Source: Bacillus sp. J37
GTDB lineage: Bacteria > Bacillota > Bacilli > Bacillales > Bacillaceae
Length of the DNA: 64,000 nt
Assembly: GCF_000518865.1 (NCBI RefSeq)
Contig: NZ_JAEK01000004.1
Coordinates: 62,001 to 126,000 of the forward strand
Direction: 5' to 3'
A model generated the notes under the pieces. The model was given only the letters and a program-made list of their open reading frames with translations, searched no databases and was not told the DNA's origin. The translations under genes were made by a program, and so were the position numbers. Each line of letters begins with the position of its first letter. The stretch's first letter is position 1. Below are positions 5,538 to 21,282 of this stretch, piece after piece.

Positions 5538-6989
5538 ATGCCTGCGATTGATGGAGAACAATACTTAAACCGTATGAATGAACTGAAGCCAAATGTATGG
5601 ATAAAAGGTGAAAAGATACATGGCATATTATCTCAACATCCTGCTTATAAGGGAGCTATGCAAGCAAAAGCATCTCTTTATGATATGCAGCTTTCTCTTG
5701 AGCTGGTTTCAAAAATGACGTATCCGTCACCTGCTACCTCACAAAGAGTGGGATTATCTTTCTTACAGCCAAAGTCAAAAGAAGATCTAGAGTCTAGAAG
5801 ATTTATGATAAAGACATGGGCAAAGAAAACAGCTGGACTAATGGGAAGAACACCCGATTACTTAAATACGGTTTTGATGACCTTTGCCGCTTCTGCTTCA
5901 TTACTTAAAGAACAAGATGAAGAGTTCTCCAAAAATTTGCTGAAGATGTATGAAACAGCTCGCGAAAATGATCTTTCCTTTACCCATAGCTTTATTAACC
6001 CGCAAATAAACCGATCACTAAACTATGAAGAAAATACTAACCAGCCCATTGCTACTAAGATTATGAAAAAGACTGCAGATGGCTTAATTGTTCAGGGAGC
6101 AAGAATGTTGGCTACACAGGGTGGCATGACCGATGAAATTTTAATTTTACCGACTGGACAAAGTGATGAATATGCTTTTTGCTTCAGTATTCCAACCGAT
6201 ACTAAGGGAGTAAAATTTATTTGCCGTGATCCTTTCGTTCAAGATGAATCAACCTTTAATCATCCACTTTCTTCTCGTTTTCATGAAATGGATACAATGA
6301 TTGTGTTCGATAAAGTATTAGTTCCTTGGAATCGTGTCTTTTTTTATCATCGACAAGACTTGGCTCTTAAGCTCTTTTCAAGAAGCAGCTTCACTCCACA
6401 TACTCTTCATCAGGTTATTATTAGACAAATAGTCAAAACCGAATTTATCCTTGGTTTAGCACAAAAAATGATTATGACGTTAAATATCACAGAATTCCAC
6501 CATATCCAAGATAAAATCAGTGAGTTGATTATCGGGTTGGAAACAATGAAGGCTTTACTGGATCGTTCTGAGCTCGAGGCAAGAATTGATGAATGGGGAA
6601 CAATGGTACCAAATAGTCATTCTTTATTTGTTGCATCTAATTTATTTCCTAAACTGTATCCACGTATGATGGAGATTATACAGTTGATAGGGGCTGGTGG
6701 TTTGGTAGCCATTCCATCTGAAGAGGATTTTGCATCTGATATATCCGCAGACATTAACCGTTATTGTCAGGGATCTGCTTGTGATGCCAAGACAAAATCG
6801 AAAGTATTTAGACTTGCCTGGGACTTAACGATGAGCAGCTTTGGCACACGTCAAACACAATATGAACGCTATTTTTTTGGAGATCCTGTTCGATTATCCT
6901 CAACACTTTATAATGGATATCCTCGGGAAGAATATATTCGTGAAGTAGAGGAATTTTTAGAGCTAGGAATAGATAAAGAGGCCTTTTGA
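5538..6989 (+). CDS. HpaB-family 4-hydroxyphenylacetate 3-monooxygenase, oxygenase component
   Basis: FADH2-dependent aromatic hydroxylase of the 4-hydroxyphenylacetate 3-hydroxylase/HpaB family; the best B. subtilis counterpart I recall is YoaI. The 483-residue length is typical. Family features seen: N-terminal GEQYLNRMNELKPNVWIKGE, central THSFINPQINR, the ATQGGMTDEILILP stretch, and a C-terminal YERYFFGDPVR followed by YNGYPREE. A GGAG ribosome binding site is 8 nt upstream of the ATG. These enzymes need a separate flavin reductase; none is encoded nearby. In B. subtilis this position holds yueI-yueK, so this gene is an accessory replacement. The true substrate cannot be inferred. Confidence 0.88.
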   Translation: MPAIDGEQYLNRMNELKPNVWIKGEKIHGILSQHPAYKGAMQAKASLYDMQLSLELVSKMTYPSPATSQRVGLSFLQPKSKEDLESRRFMIKTWAKKTAGLMGRTPDYLNTVLMTFAASASLLKEQDEEFSKNLLKMYETARENDLSFTHSFINPQINRSLNYEENTNQPIATKIMKKTADGLIVQGARMLATQGGMTDEILILPTGQSDEYAFCFSIPTDTKGVKFICRDPFVQDESTFNHPLSSRFHEMDTMIVFDKVLVPWNRVFFYHRQDLALKLFSRSSFTPHTLHQVIIRQIVKTEFILGLAQKMIMTLNITEFHHIQDKISELIIGLETMKALLDRSELEARIDEWGTMVPNSHSLFVASNLFPKLYPRMMEIIQLIGAGGLVAIPSEEDFASDISADINRYCQGSACDAKTKSKVFRLAWDLTMSSFGTRQTQYERYFFGDPVRLSSTLYNGYPREEYIREVEEFLELGIDKEAF

Positions 6990-7007
6990 TTTAAGCCTCT
7001 TTTTTTG
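6975..7007 (+). terminator. Intrinsic terminator of the hpaB-like gene
   Basis: Stem AAAGAGGC / GCCTCTTT followed by a run of T, overlapping the last codons of the gene. Confidence 0.88.
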
Positions 7008-7015
7008 TTATGCAA

Positions 7016-7264
7016 TTACATTTCACTAACCCACTGTTGTACTTTTCTGGCCAGTTCATCTGCTGTCTCTTGTTCCGTACTTTTTGCTAATGAAGTAATT
7101 AAACGACTGTACAGCTCGTCCCTTTTTTCTTCATAGGAAATTGTCGTAGACCATTCAATTTCTGGAATTGCGATTAAGCTGTATTCCTCTTTTTTATTTT
7201 CATAAATATACACATTTGTAATAGTAATATTGTCGTTCTTCACATTTGCTTTTCTAATTTTCAT
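7016..7264 (-). CDS. yueH: YueH family protein, 82 aa
   Basis: Small cytosolic protein of unknown function conserved in Bacillus. The start MKIRKANVKNDNITITNVYI is chosen because AAAGGATG lies 6 nt before it; the longer frame from 7285 has no ribosome binding site. The 82-residue length equals B. subtilis YueH as I recall it, and the block VYIYENKKEEYSLIAIPEIE is the recognisable part. Next genes yueG, yueF and yueE keep the B. subtilis order. Confidence 0.82.
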   Translation of the reverse strand: MKIRKANVKNDNITITNVYIYENKKEEYSLIAIPEIEWSTTISYEEKRDELYSRLITSLAKSTEQETADELARKVQQWVSEM

Positions 7265-7340
7265 TCGAATCATCCTTTCAACCATCTATGAAAATATTAT
7301 AATCGATGTCCAAACGAATTTCAGCTGTCAGGAATTTTCT

Positions 7341-7411
7341 AGGAACAAAAGCGCTGGAGCCGGATGTAAGTGCACTCATTCACAGTTCAAAAAAATTTAT
7401 AGTTTCCTGAG
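7341..7411 (+). repeat. Dispersed repeat family R1, copy C (truncated)
   Basis: A 70 bp fragment: the 5' tip AACAAAAGCGCTGGAGC joined to the 3' end (GGATGTAAGTGCACTCATTC, CACAGTTC, TTTATAGTTTCCT). The inner half of the element is missing. It sits between yueH and yueG, about 12 bp from the hairpin downstream of yueG. Confidence 0.75.
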
Positions 7412-7422
7412 CGGTAAGAAAG

Positions 7423-7465
7423 AAGAACTGCTTATCAAGCATCCTTCACCAGATAAGCAGTTCTT
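7423..7465 (-). terminator. Strong hairpin downstream of yueG
   Basis: A perfect 14 bp inverted repeat, AAGAACTGCTTATC / GATAAGCAGTTCTT, with a 15-nt loop, 7 bp beyond the yueG stop. On the minus strand it is followed by CTTTCTTAC, a weak T-rich tail, so it may stop or protect yueG mRNA. Confidence 0.7.
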
Positions 7466-7471
7466 TATGAT

Positions 7472-7693
7472 TTAAAAATTAAAAATGTTAGTTTGATCTA
7501 TTACATCACTATCTTCAAAATTTGTGATATTAAAAACATTTTGTGTATTGGTGAAATCCCCCGTATTAGCAACCCCAGAGCCTAAAGATGACTTATTTGA
7601 GGATTTAGGAGATAAACTAAACGTATCTCCAATTTTAAAGACTGCAGAACTATTAATACTAGTTAATTCAATGGGACCAACAAAAGCCGGCAT
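7472..7693 (-). CDS. yueG: GerPA/GerPF-family spore germination protein YueG
   Basis: A 73-residue protein of the GerPA/GerPF family. It starts MPAFVGPIELTSINSSAVFK, with the family pattern of a short beta strand, SSAVFKIGD and a Ser/Asn-rich middle (SLSPKSSNKSSLGSG), and ends with Asn-rich repeats. Family members act in spore coat permeability to germinants. AAGGGGAAAAAG lies upstream of the ATG at 7693. It keeps the B. subtilis position between yueH and yueF. Expression in the mother cell late in sporulation is expected from family knowledge; no promoter was identified. Confidence 0.87.
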   Translation of the reverse strand: MPAFVGPIELTSINSSAVFKIGDTFSLSPKSSNKSSLGSGVANTGDFTNTQNVFNITNFEDSDVIDQTNIFNF

Positions 7694-7775: not shown

Positions 7776-8891
7776 CTATTCGTTTACACGACTGCTAATG
7801 ATATCTTCCCTGGACTTTGCTCTTAATTTAATCAAACGTACCACATTCAATGTAACTGCTTTTAGGACAGCATAAGTAGGTACTGCTAGTATCATTCCGA
7901 TAATTCCGCCAAAACTGCCCGCTCCGATTAACAATAATATGATCGTTAATGGATGAGTGTTTAGGCGTTTTCCAATAATAAGAGGAGACAAAAGATTCCC
8001 ATCAATCTGTTGTACGACGGTCACAACCAGGGCTGCAAGCAATGCTTTCGTAGGAGAGTCCAGCAAAGCAATCACAACCGCTGGAGTAGCACCAATAAAT
8101 GGTCCAACATATGGAATAATATTGGTAACTGCCACTACGATTCCAAGAACTAAGGCGTAATCTAAACCAATGATCATATAACCAATATAACATCCAAGTC
8201 CAACTGCTAAAGACACAATCAGCTGTCCTTGAATATACGTTGCAAGTGTTTCGTATAAGTCTTTTAAAATTTTCAGACCCTCTCCACGGTATGTGGATGG
8301 AAATAGTTTTACTGCTTCACCAGAAAATTTATGACCATCCTTTAGCATGTAAAATAGAATAAAAGGAACAGTAATAATTGTTAACGTGATATTTGTTACT
8401 ACACCTAGTAATTTTGAAAAACTTGAAGTAATATTTTCCGGTAAACTTGTTGCATAACCAGTTAACGTCTGTTCAATTTGATTTAATGACACATACTCCT
8501 GCTCCATTAACCAAGTGAACCAGTGTGATTGAGACATACTTAAAATAAAATCCGTGATTTCTCTAGCATATGTAGGAAAATTACTGATTAAATCTGACAC
8601 CTGTTGGGTAACAATAGGTCCAATGAAAGAAATAATACCGGTTACAACCCCAACAAACACAATATACGGTATTAAAATGGCCAATGTTCTGGGTACCTTG
8701 TTTCTTTCGAGTAATTTTACAAGGGGATTAAAAATAAAGAATAAGATCCCGGCAATCAATATTGGAAAGAATAAGGTCGAAGCAAATACAATAATCGGCT
8801 CAAATAAAAAAGAGACCTTTGTACCCACATAGACAATTAGAAGCAATAATAAAATTTGTAATGTCCAAAAATGAACCTTTGATTTTAACAC
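7776..8891 (-). CDS. yueF: AI-2E family transporter YueF
   Basis: Integral membrane protein of the AI-2E transporter (UPF0118) family, about 371 residues. Hydrophobic segments cluster at the N-terminus (about 1-75), after a soluble loop at about 75-140, and in a C-terminal block with the family motif GLDYALVLGIVVAVTNIIPY followed by VGPFIG. GTG at 8891 is preferred because GGAGG lies 7 nt upstream; the ATG at 8939 has no such site. Substrate unknown; family members range from autoinducer export to Na+/H+ exchange. Confidence 0.88.
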   Translation of the reverse strand: MLKSKVHFWTLQILLLLLIVYVGTKVSFLFEPIIVFASTLFFPILIAGILFFIFNPLVKLLERNKVPRTLAILIPYIVFVGVVTGIISFIGPIVTQQVSDLISNFPTYAREITDFILSMSQSHWFTWLMEQEYVSLNQIEQTLTGYATSLPENITSSFSKLLGVVTNITLTIITVPFILFYMLKDGHKFSGEAVKLFPSTYRGEGLKILKDLYETLATYIQGQLIVSLAVGLGCYIGYMIIGLDYALVLGIVVAVTNIIPYVGPFIGATPAVVIALLDSPTKALLAALVVTVVQQIDGNLLSPLIIGKRLNTHPLTIILLLIGAGSFGGIIGMILAVPTYAVLKAVTLNVVRLIKLRAKSREDIISSRVNE

Positions 8892-19449: not shown

Positions 19450-19723
19450 CGTCAAGACCCCCGAAATCCTTTAGTTTGCTAATATAGTAGAGAAATAAAA
19501 CATCGGAATTAAACTTATCATATTTGCTTGAAATCTGTCAATTAGTATATCAAGATATTAAATACTAGCTCCTTTTTAAAACACGCAAGCCTTCGGCACC
19601 CCGATGAATATAAAAGCCCTTTCATTTTCCTTTTCTTAAAAACTTTAACTTTTTATATTAAAATCATTTCCAGTTTGTCCGATATAAAAACTGGTCAAGT
19701 GTAACATTCGTAATTTTTGGCCA

Positions 19724-19798
19724 AACAACGGCAAACTTATTGAAAAATAAGGACGCAAAACTATGGGTCTAAGGCAATCGCTATGGCTGCCAAGTTGC
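19724..19798 (+). ncRNA. c-di-GMP-I riboswitch (GEMM aptamer)
   Basis: The sequence carries the class I signature in order: CAAC closing strand, GGCAAAC, hairpin CTTATT-GAAA-AATAAG with a GNRA tetraloop, GGACGCAAA, ACTATGGGTCTAAGG, a second hairpin, then GGCTGCCAAGTTG which re-closes with CAAC. These match the Vc2-type aptamer core (GGCAAACC, GAAA loop, GGGACGCAAAGCC, GGCCUAAACC). Downstream, CCAAG at the aptamer 3' end can pair with CTTGG (19820-19824), and TCCTC (19839-19843) can pair with GAGGA of the ribosome binding site (19855-19859), which suggests translational control of the next gene. About 175 bp of AT-rich sequence upstream (19550-19723) holds no gene. Confidence 0.9.
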
Positions 19799-19867
19799 AA
19801 ATGCTAATTTTATTCCCTTCTTGGTTGTTCACCTTAGATCCTCGCTACAAAAGAGAGGAGACATACA

Positions 19868-20215
19868 ATGTCAAAAGGTAATTATGAAATTAAAGTAAAT
19901 CATGGTGCAAAAATTGTGGAGATGTTTATTGGCGGTACATTTACTCCAACAGATGTGCAAAACTTCGTCAGTGATTATCAGAAAGAGGTTTCAGCAATTA
20001 ACGCTCCTGTTTTTACTCTTGAGATCGATTGTTCCTATATGGACCTTCTTAAACAAGAAATGATTCCAAGCTTAGAAAATTCCTACAAGATGTATAAGGA
20101 ATCCGGATTCAAAAAAGTTATTTTCAAAATTAAACAAAATCCTGTGTTAAAACTTCAATTAAATCGCCTTGCAAGAAATACAGGATTAACCAATGCTGAA
20201 GTAATGGAAGGTTAA
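19868..20215 (+). CDS. STAS-like small protein under c-di-GMP riboswitch control
   Basis: A 115-residue soluble protein that I do not recognise as a named family. The order of predicted elements (strands NYEIKV and KIVEMFIGG, helix TPTDVQNFVSDYQKEVSAI, strand FTLEID, helix, strand KKVIFKI, final helix) is that of a STAS/SpoIIAA-type fold. A possible phosphorylation Ser after the third strand (IDCSYMD) is suggestive only. The GAGAGGAG ribosome binding site can be masked by an upstream TCCTC. It is followed by a terminator-like hairpin and then the FabH-like gene. Role in c-di-GMP response is inferred from the leader alone. Confidence 0.8.
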   Translation: MSKGNYEIKVNHGAKIVEMFIGGTFTPTDVQNFVSDYQKEVSAINAPVFTLEIDCSYMDLLKQEMIPSLENSYKMYKESGFKKVIFKIKQNPVLKLQLNRLARNTGLTNAEVMEG

Positions 20216-20224
20216 TAACTTTTT

Positions 20225-20266
20225 AGGATGAATCAAAGTACTATCCCTTGACTCATCCTCTTTTTT
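20225..20266 (+). terminator. Terminator-like hairpin between the STAS-like and FabH-like genes
   Basis: Stem AGGATGA-A-TCAA / TTGA-C-TCATCCT with an 11-nt loop and a tail of six T. There is almost no room for a promoter between it and the next gene, so it probably reduces rather than abolishes downstream transcription. Confidence 0.75.
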
Positions 20267-20295
20267 ATTTCACACAAATATAGGAGGAATACACT

Positions 20296-21282
20296 TTGCA
20301 ATATGTAAAAATACATTCTGTTGATATTTATCATCCTACAAAAGTTGTTGATAACACATATTTTATCAATCATTTTCAACAGAGAGAAAAAGATATTACA
20401 CGGTTTCTTGATCATATGGGAAGAAAAAAACGTTATATCATTGATAATCCAGATGAGAATAGTTTAACAATGGCAATTGAAGCAGCCAAACGGGTTCTTA
20501 CTAAAGCAAATATGAGTGGAAAAGATATTGATTTAATTATGTTCTCATCACAAATTCCTGAATACACATTCCCTACAAATGCTACATATTTACATGATGC
20601 AATTGGGGCTGGCTCACAAACCATTCTATTAGATTCAAATGCCAATTGCGCCGGTATGACTGTCGCCGTCGATTATACTTCAAGGTATATGTTAACAAGT
20701 AAGGATATCAAAACTGCCTTAATAGTCGGGTCAGATTATAACTCGATCATTAGCGACCCTGAAGATGAAATAACATTTTCGAATTTTGGTGATGCAGCGG
20801 CAGCTGTTATATTAGAAAAAACGGATGATGAAACAGGTTTTATTGACTCCATTTATTTTACAGACTCGATTAATAAGGATAAAATTTTATATCCCGCAAA
20901 AGGCTTATCCAATGTTCTACAAAACATGGAACAAGGAAAGTATATCAAGTGGCTTCCTTTTGATGGGAATATCGCCCTGCCTCCCACTTATGAAATGATC
21001 CAAAAACTATTGGACCGTAATAGTTTACAAGCAAGTGATATCAGTTGTTATTGCTTTTCTCAATTTTCTTTAGCCAATATTTTAAAAATACAAGAGAAGT
21101 TTGACATACATGATAAACAAATTGTTTATGTTGGTGATCGTTTCGGATATACGGGAACCTCCAGCCCGTTTTTGGTATTACACGAAGCAATAAATAGGGG
21201 AACAGTTAAAAGAGGGGATTATATTTTATTTTGGACAATCGGTTCCGGATACCAATTAGTATCCATGTTATTTAAATATTAA
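20296..21282 (+). CDS. FabH-like (KAS III superfamily) protein with altered catalytic triad
   Basis: Thiolase-fold protein of 328 residues. The nucleophile region is kept (SNANCAGMTVAVDYTSRYML, Cys about 115), and GSDYNSII and FSNFGDAAAAVIL match the family. The usual His motif (HQAN) reads FSLAN and the usual Asn motif (GNTSAAS) reads GYTGTSS, so His and Asn of the Cys-His-Asn triad appear lost. That argues against standard decarboxylating condensation and for acyl transfer or another role. TTG start with AGGAGG at 8 nt. Downstream of the c-di-GMP riboswitch and STAS-like gene. It is not the housekeeping fabH. Confidence 0.85.
   Translation: MQYVKIHSVDIYHPTKVVDNTYFINHFQQREKDITRFLDHMGRKKRYIIDNPDENSLTMAIEAAKRVLTKANMSGKDIDLIMFSSQIPEYTFPTNATYLHDAIGAGSQTILLDSNANCAGMTVAVDYTSRYMLTSKDIKTALIVGSDYNSIISDPEDEITFSNFGDAAAAVILEKTDDETGFIDSIYFTDSINKDKILYPAKGLSNVLQNMEQGKYIKWLPFDGNIALPPTYEMIQKLLDRNSLQASDISCYCFSQFSLANILKIQEKFDIHDKQIVYVGDRFGYTGTSSPFLVLHEAINRGTVKRGDYILFWTIGSGYQLVSMLFKY

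Follow-up and report, generated by a model that had tools for sequence, protein, structure and literature searches.

A conserved STAS and KAS III-like gene pair in the Bacillales, preceded in several lineages by c-di-GMP riboswitches

A gene for a small STAS protein and an adjacent gene for a KAS III-like protein with Cys-Ser/Thr-Tyr at its active site form a conserved module across the Bacillales, and c-di-GMP riboswitches stand before it in several lineages; this is the strongest statement that the present analysis supports. KAS III proteins are textbook condensing enzymes, and c-di-GMP is the messenger by which cells choose to swim or to settle. The aptamer belongs to an established class; what appears to be new, as far as our searches go, is the KAS III-like clade with its bond to a STAS gene, no description of the pair having been found in a body of literature from which most subscription papers were outside reach. 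The locus shares its aptamer class with the known c-di-GMP-I (GEMM-I) regulons, and the available parts of two papers on such regulons (PMC3766115, PMC7266159) name no STAS-KAS pair. That a KAS III-like clade has kept the Cys, exchanged both helper residues and is nearly always encoded next to STAS suggests chemistry or signalling hidden under the annotation '3-oxoacyl-ACP synthase'.

Layout and genomic setting of the locus

The window, a stretch of 64,000 nt from Bacillus sp. J37 (contig NZ_JAEK01000004.1), carries an aptamer, a 65 nt leader, a 115-residue STAS reading frame, an 80 nt gap and a 328-residue KAS III-like reading frame, in that order:

19720..19802, + strand: c-di-GMP-I (GEMM-I) aptamer (Rfam RF01051; alignment of nine aptamers)
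19803..19867, + strand: leader and expression platform (sequence, terminator search, folding)
19868..20215, + strand: STAS/SpoIIAA-fold protein, 115 aa (reading frame, predicted model with fold searches, conserved partner)
20216..20295, + strand: gap between the two genes, containing a hairpin of terminator type (AGGATGA..TCATCCT) with a T-run behind it
20296..21282, + strand: KAS III-fold protein, 328 aa, with Cys118, Ser255 and Tyr285 (Pfam, predicted model, alignments)

The KAS III-like frame starts with TTG, preceded by AGGAGG, and the pair is flanked by genes for a yuiF-type Na+/H+ antiporter and, on the other strand, the leucyl aminopeptidase PepA. The distance from yuiF to the 3' end of pepA is 1.9 kb in the window, as against about 0.3-1.1 kb in 14 of 17 other genomes of the genus, a count that omits four carriers of the pair at the window's site and in which the other three genomes gave no clear placement within the flank. 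In three members of the genus (L038-L040) the pair lies at other sites, and yuiF lies near pepA there (L227, L224, L223).

Homologues of the KAS III-like protein on six plasmid records, at 35-49% identity, make plasmid-borne mobility of the locus possible. These are named '3-oxoacyl-ACP synthase', 'ketoacyl-ACP synthase III' or '3-oxoacyl-[acyl-carrier-protein] synthase III C-terminal domain-containing protein', and the STAS genes on the same records 'hypothetical protein'. Carriage as phage cargo was rejected, the STAS protein having no match at E 1e-3 in a phage collection.

Conservation of the pair and variability of its neighbours

A peptide-pattern scan of a species genome collection returned 106 relatives, the best 80 of which, from 79 genomes, were kept; in all 80 of these loci the KAS III-like gene is closely preceded, on its own strand, by a STAS gene that ends within about 0.5 kb of it. 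An order-wide sample contained the KAS III-like protein in 21 of 397 genomes (the host's own counted), at 22 places besides the window, several of them in the same genomes as the 80 loci; STAS was upstream at 20, downstream at one (L162, identical to L248) and absent at one (L161, identical to L247). In a phylum-wide sample 8 of 398 genomes matched, again counting the host's own, and the nine places besides the window comprised six with a STAS gene and three with none nearby (L204, L205, L207). Five loci were read on the six plasmid records, with STAS upstream at three, convergent at one (L165) and absent at one (L164). Where the order is swapped (L242, L248) or the genes converge (L229, L165) STAS and KAS are still adjacent, which argues for a functional tie and not a frozen operon. 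A riboswitch and a STAS gene occur at L057, in a genome (G016) with no KAS relative at E 1e-60, and no KAS remnant was found beside that riboswitch-STAS gene.

The neighbours of 27 loci amount to 54 proteins, and a Pfam scan at E 1e-5 took in 30 of them, belonging to 22 loci. These differ from locus to locus, including globin-reductase, PTS, catalase, glycoside hydrolases, permeases and regulators among others, with one chemoreceptor signalling protein (MCP; L087) and three acyl-related or GNAT proteins (two at L091, one at L096); an AMP-binding ligase gene follows the pair at L091, and an acyltransferase-3 gene precedes it at L096. Many Paenibacillus loci form a four-gene run encoding a TPP enzyme, a CMD protein, STAS and the KAS III-like protein, as identified by Pfam on L119 and recognised elsewhere by length and opening sequence. 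In Salinibacillus kushneri (L086, 1878-6981) three genes lie directly upstream of the pair, encoding an acyl-CoA ligase, a thioesterase and a protein that its opening sequence marks as KAS II-like.

A hairpin resembling a terminator lies between the STAS and KAS genes at 29 of 82 loci, the window included, where 51 of the 82 offered less than 60 nt to the scan and mononucleotide shuffles gave 7 of 410. This hairpin is perhaps an attenuator keeping KAS below STAS, and since it sits between the genes the STAS protein is probably made in excess over the enzyme in the species that have it, which would suit a role as adaptor or acceptor.

A rebuilt active site in the KAS III-like protein

The predicted model of the KAS III-like protein is a full-length KAS III fold (pLDDT 93.7), for which E. 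coli FabH is the top fold-search match (TM about 0.9, 26% identity); against the NCBI fabH model the protein scores 151 bits, the cut-off being 292. In the FabH alignment Cys118 falls at the nucleophile position, Ser255 at that of the His and Tyr285 at that of the Asn. Model and alignments thus confirm the KAS III fold and retained active-site Cys of the preliminary description. That account had further reported a broken triad; the break is real, but the motif opposite HQAN is SQFS and not, as had been read, FSLAN.

Cys, Ser or Thr, and Tyr fill the three positions in all 108 distinct family members aligned (105 Cys-Ser-Tyr and three Cys-Thr-Tyr; 127 rows before removal of duplicates), down to members at 34-40% identity to the window protein, and not one of the 108 has the catalytic His and Asn of KAS III condensing enzymes. 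The Cys and Gln256 are invariant in 115 of 115 rows, duplicates counted. Among ordinary relatives aligned for comparison, His is kept in 19 of 22 rows and Asn likewise in 19 of 22, three rows aligning badly. As Cys-Ser/Thr-Tyr is constant family-wide, the site is being maintained and is not decaying.

The family therefore has the full-length fold and nucleophilic Cys of FabH, from which it differs in having Ser/Thr and Tyr for His and Asn and in its tie to a STAS gene. It had been argued that KAS III proteins without the His/Asn pair tend to be acyltransferases, a rule that now looks unsafe: as described in the available part of PMC9573744, the KAS III-fold acyltransferases ChlB3 and CerJ use Cys-His-Asp, so keeping the His, which activates the Cys. 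These enzymes share the fold and the Cys nucleophile with the present protein; by that published description they would differ from the present family, which has no His at either FabH position.

The STAS protein

A STAS/SpoIIAA fold for the 115-residue protein, as first proposed, was upheld by its predicted model and by fold searches, in which SpoIIAA-like, SiaC and RsbS structures were nearest. Sequence searches for a solved relative gave nothing credible, the fold search succeeding where they did not, and the Pfam STAS model matches just 3 of 54 members (best E 0.038). A tree of the family, built on 119 columns, has few firm branches. Fold, length and topology are common to this protein, SpoIIAA/RsbV/RsbS and SiaC. 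SpoIIAA and RsbV are phosphorylated on a Ser or Thr at the start of helix 2; in the predicted model this helix begins at residue 63, the window protein reading Leu61-Lys62-Gln63, and Ser or Thr occupies positions 61, 62 and 63 in 16, 27 and 5 of 54 rows, so that no conserved phospho-acceptor was found at the place indicated by the predicted structure and the family would differ from SpoIIAA/RsbV in this respect. A further difference from SpoIIAA/RsbV/RsbS and SiaC lies in the gene that accompanies it, which encodes a KAS III-like enzyme here and a GNAT-like protein in relatives. A STAS-ACP complex has been reported for YchM. STAS-domain proteins that modulate partner enzymes, namely SiaC, HsbA and BgrV, are described in the available part of PMC8457831.

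An optional but recurrent riboswitch

A covariance search confirmed the complete c-di-GMP-I aptamer of the preliminary description, with 74.6 bits against RF01051, for which the gathering threshold is 35; it is the sole RNA at Rfam gathering level between 15000 and 25000. GGCAAA is present in all nine aligned aptamers, and all nine have G at what we take to be the position separating c-di-GMP from c-AMP-GMP binders.

When a riboswitch model built from these nine aptamers (R1) was searched against the best 80 of the 106 relatives, an aptamer was found to lead into the pair or its operon at 14 loci:

L061 and L062: Metabacillus
L069: Sediminibacillus albus
L083: Domibacillus enclensis
L085: Paenibacillus soyae
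L089: Paenibacillus nanensis
L103: Cytobacillus eiseniae
L119, L127, L135-L138 and L140: four-gene Paenibacillus run

In the seven Paenibacillus runs the aptamer is about 2.3-2.5 kb before STAS, ahead of the TPP enzyme gene. The match at L067 (position 753) is not adjacent to the pair; further cases are L156 and L157, from an added lineage, and L037 (G003), from the window's genus. Random placement of the aptamers, at least 354 in the 79 genomes, with the 3.5 kb upstream on the same strand as target, is expected to give 0.12 loci, as against the 14 of 80 observed, in six lineages. On a tree of the KAS proteins (99 rows, 18 labelled; a quick tree with SH-aLRT only) the riboswitch label changes at least seven times, at least five of the changes being forced by starred branches.

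The remaining 66 of the 80 loci lack a riboswitch, many of them in genomes with several aptamers elsewhere, and of the 29 genomes that make up one half of the set, 12 gave not a single c-di-GMP-I match. Within the four-gene Paenibacillus group, seven operons with an aptamer lie in genomes containing 6-9, and 15 without one (L117, L118, L120-L123, L125, L128-L134, L139) in genomes containing 0-2, which makes the loss in this group look genome-wide. Neither c-di-GMP-I nor c-di-GMP-II was matched in an all-family Rfam scan at E 0.5 of L068, L117, L120, L129 and L133, or in a gathering-level scan of the genome copies of L064, L066, L070 and L096 (L038-L041); c-di-GMP-II was thus covered at 9 of the 66 loci, the other 57 being checked for c-di-GMP-I only, in one genome search with tighter filters and among the matches listed.

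The riboswitch is therefore optional but recurrent, the STAS-KAS pair being the constant feature; the idea that the module always includes a riboswitch was rejected on account of the 66 loci without one. The suggested link between locus and c-di-GMP is real, although most homologues of the pair do without the riboswitch; they are not consistently riboswitch-less, and the pairing itself held at every one of the 80 loci.

Direction of control

A terminator-like hairpin followed by a T-run lies behind the aptamer in 14 of 19 leaders, which comprise 18 of KAS-linked units and the STAS-only L057 and include some near-copies. It is present in seven of seven leaders of the Paenibacillus run and seven of 12 elsewhere, that of L157 being weak (22 of 200 shuffles as good). 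No terminator was found in five leaders of the Metabacillus clade (the window, L061, L062, L037, L057), the window's having been searched over 120 nt, and a terminator there was rejected.

Were the 3' strand of the aptamer to act as antiterminator, ligand binding would free the terminator and the device would be an OFF switch. Antiterminator helices of 5-9 bp are possible in most terminator leaders, but in only 5 of the 20 tested do they outperform 95% of the shuffled aptamer ends: L156 (26 of 1000 shuffles as good), L157 (45 of 1000) and three leaders of a second operon type described below, L235 (10 of 1000), L236 (37 of 1000) and L237 (14 of 1000). L136 nearly stands out (74 of 1000) and L089 has none. 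Most of these helices are what chance gives, and repression by c-di-GMP is weakly favoured across the leaders. The earlier proposal that production depends on c-di-GMP had given no sign; OFF is the direction towards which the leaders lean slightly.

In the window, GCCAAG within the aptamer (19789-19794) is able to pair with CTTGGT (19820-19825), and a local hairpin, CCTC/GAGG, covers the Shine-Dalgarno (19853-19860). Folding with and without a constrained aptamer did not separate two states in the five Metabacillus-clade leaders; the constraint was taken from the way the P3 region folds locally, and for L061 and L057 this differs from the consensus helix. In the window, L061 and L062 the Shine-Dalgarno stays mostly paired in either state. 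It is partly open in L037 and L057, and in L037 formation of the aptamer opens it, if anything, slightly further. Metabacillus probably exerts this control at the level of translation, and its sign could be either.

A second STAS operon with a GNAT-like protein and a chemoreceptor

Members of the STAS family occur more widely than those of the KAS family, in 51 of 397 order genomes (the host's own counted). Fifty-six STAS places were listed and 20 stretches read in context, 18 of which are STAS places from that list or its genomes; no STAS frame was present in the selected reading frames of L240 and L241. The STAS profile A5 contained three non-KAS members, and homology was rechecked with A7, which has none; the window STAS sequence alone reaches non-KAS relatives at E 2e-7 to 4e-7.

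In other Bacillales families STAS is followed by a GNAT-like protein of 236-242 aa and an MCP, several of these loci also having a PLP decarboxylase gene, divergent in some. Pfam identified the MCP (MCPsignal) in L236 and L239 and the decarboxylase in L236, the other loci being alike by length and opening sequence. The GNAT-like protein has a weak Acetyltransf_1 match in five of nine members (best E 0.0007) and a weak PDB profile match to a GNAT-like viral protein (E 0.0017). Among ten such loci an aptamer lies directly upstream of STAS in five (L234-L237, L239), and L233 has a weak one of 30 bits; all six have a terminator behind it. At L231 and L058 an aptamer is nearby without reading into STAS, and L232 and L246 have none. 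MCP genes also lie beside the KAS-type loci L090, L103 and L087 and beside another STAS gene, L059. A combination of c-di-GMP control, STAS and a probable acyl-CoA enzyme hence recurs in two forms, the GNAT-like gene taking the position of KAS in the second. No paper on the STAS-GNAT-like-MCP operon was found among those that our searches listed. This operon and the repeated riboswitch linkage of the KAS III-like clade would relate the state of acyl-CoA to the way in which Gram-positive bacteria choose between swimming and settling.

Proposed mechanism and alternatives

The reading that we tentatively prefer, with somewhat less than even confidence, is that the locus is a c-di-GMP-controlled acyl-handling module in which a transacylating KAS III-like enzyme works with a STAS adaptor or acceptor. 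Cys118 of the KAS III-like protein would be acylated by acyl-CoA or acyl-ACP, and the group then passed to an acceptor without extension, given that the His/Asn pair for malonyl-ACP condensation is missing. The STAS protein, probably in excess, would be the acceptor or an adaptor presenting it, and c-di-GMP, acting through the leader, would set the amount of the pair, with a weak preference for lowering it when the cell settles. As ChlB3 and CerJ activate their Cys by a His (PMC9573744, available part), activation of Cys118 would have to come from elsewhere, perhaps, speculatively, from Tyr285 or Gln256. The acyl product or signal that had been ascribed to the locus is still an inference. The constant pairing, the invariant active site, the recurring riboswitch with its terminators, the hairpin separating the genes and the second operon type speak for this reading; the riboswitch-less loci, the KAS homologues with no STAS nearby, the STAS-only L057, the weak antiterminator statistics, the folding of the Metabacillus-clade leaders and the weak GNAT matches speak against it.

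A broader version of the same idea, which we consider unlikely, would join both operon types in a family of c-di-GMP-responsive 'acyl switches', with STAS itself receiving or carrying acyl groups from acyl-CoA enzymes that can replace one another, either KAS III-fold or GNAT-like with its own chemoreceptor, so that fatty-acyl or acetyl-CoA state would feed motility or chemotaxis only in swimming cells.

The main rival is a signalling module, an acyl-sensing partner switch, in which the KAS III-like protein would be a sensor of acyl-CoA or acyl-ACP that holds or releases STAS according to the acyl state of Cys118, with c-di-GMP setting the level of the pair; STAS would act here much as HsbA, BgrV and SiaC do with cyclases. 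The nearest structures to the STAS model, the known enzyme-modulating STAS partners (PMC8457831, available part), the loss of both condensation residues throughout the family and the presence of MCP genes next to some of the pairs and to several of the STAS relatives would all suit such a switch. Against these stand the unconserved phospho-acceptor place at the start of helix 2 and the neighbourhoods, as the 30 proteins scanned from 22 loci (Pfam, E 1e-5) include no match to a partner-switch kinase, PP2C phosphatase or sigma factor; we judge this reading improbable, if the best of the alternatives.

DarB, PpyS and PqsD make diffusible acyl products, and the KAS III-like protein may do likewise by unusual chemistry, helped by STAS and, in some species, by neighbours that supply precursors. 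The TPP enzyme and CMD genes upstream in the Paenibacillus run, the three genes ahead of the pair in S. kushneri, and the ligase and acyltransferase-3 genes at L091 and L096 fit a biosynthetic role, but the neighbours vary by locus, only 3 of 30 scanned being acyl-related, and the condensation residues are missing in every distinct member, which renders it less probable again. A last alternative, that the riboswitch is a relic or controls some other gene and that the pair is unrelated to c-di-GMP, draws on the many riboswitch-less loci and aptamer-free genomes. It was rejected as very improbable in the face of the excess over random placement, the recurrence of the riboswitch in six lineages and in L156 and L157, and the finding that what follows the aptamer is STAS or the operon to which STAS belongs.

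Additional observations

The window's own genome has a c-di-GMP-I(-GGC) riboswitch (L044, G000:C87, 8863-8947, - strand) directly upstream of a gene for the SinI anti-repressor (8681-8830, - strand; Pfam SinI, E 4e-13), where the SinI/SinR biofilm switch could receive direct input from c-di-GMP. Two more c-di-GMP-I-GGC riboswitches in this genome lie at L043 (8730-8812) and L042 (8907-8995), the proteins scanned near them giving no Pfam match. The genome labelled Paenibacillus sp. FJAT-29882 (L072) clusters with Peribacillus loiseleuriae, with which it shares the neighbouring genes, and its label may be wrong. At L041 three Rfam matches to BsrG, a type I toxin-antitoxin RNA, stand in a row (6378-7574, - strand).
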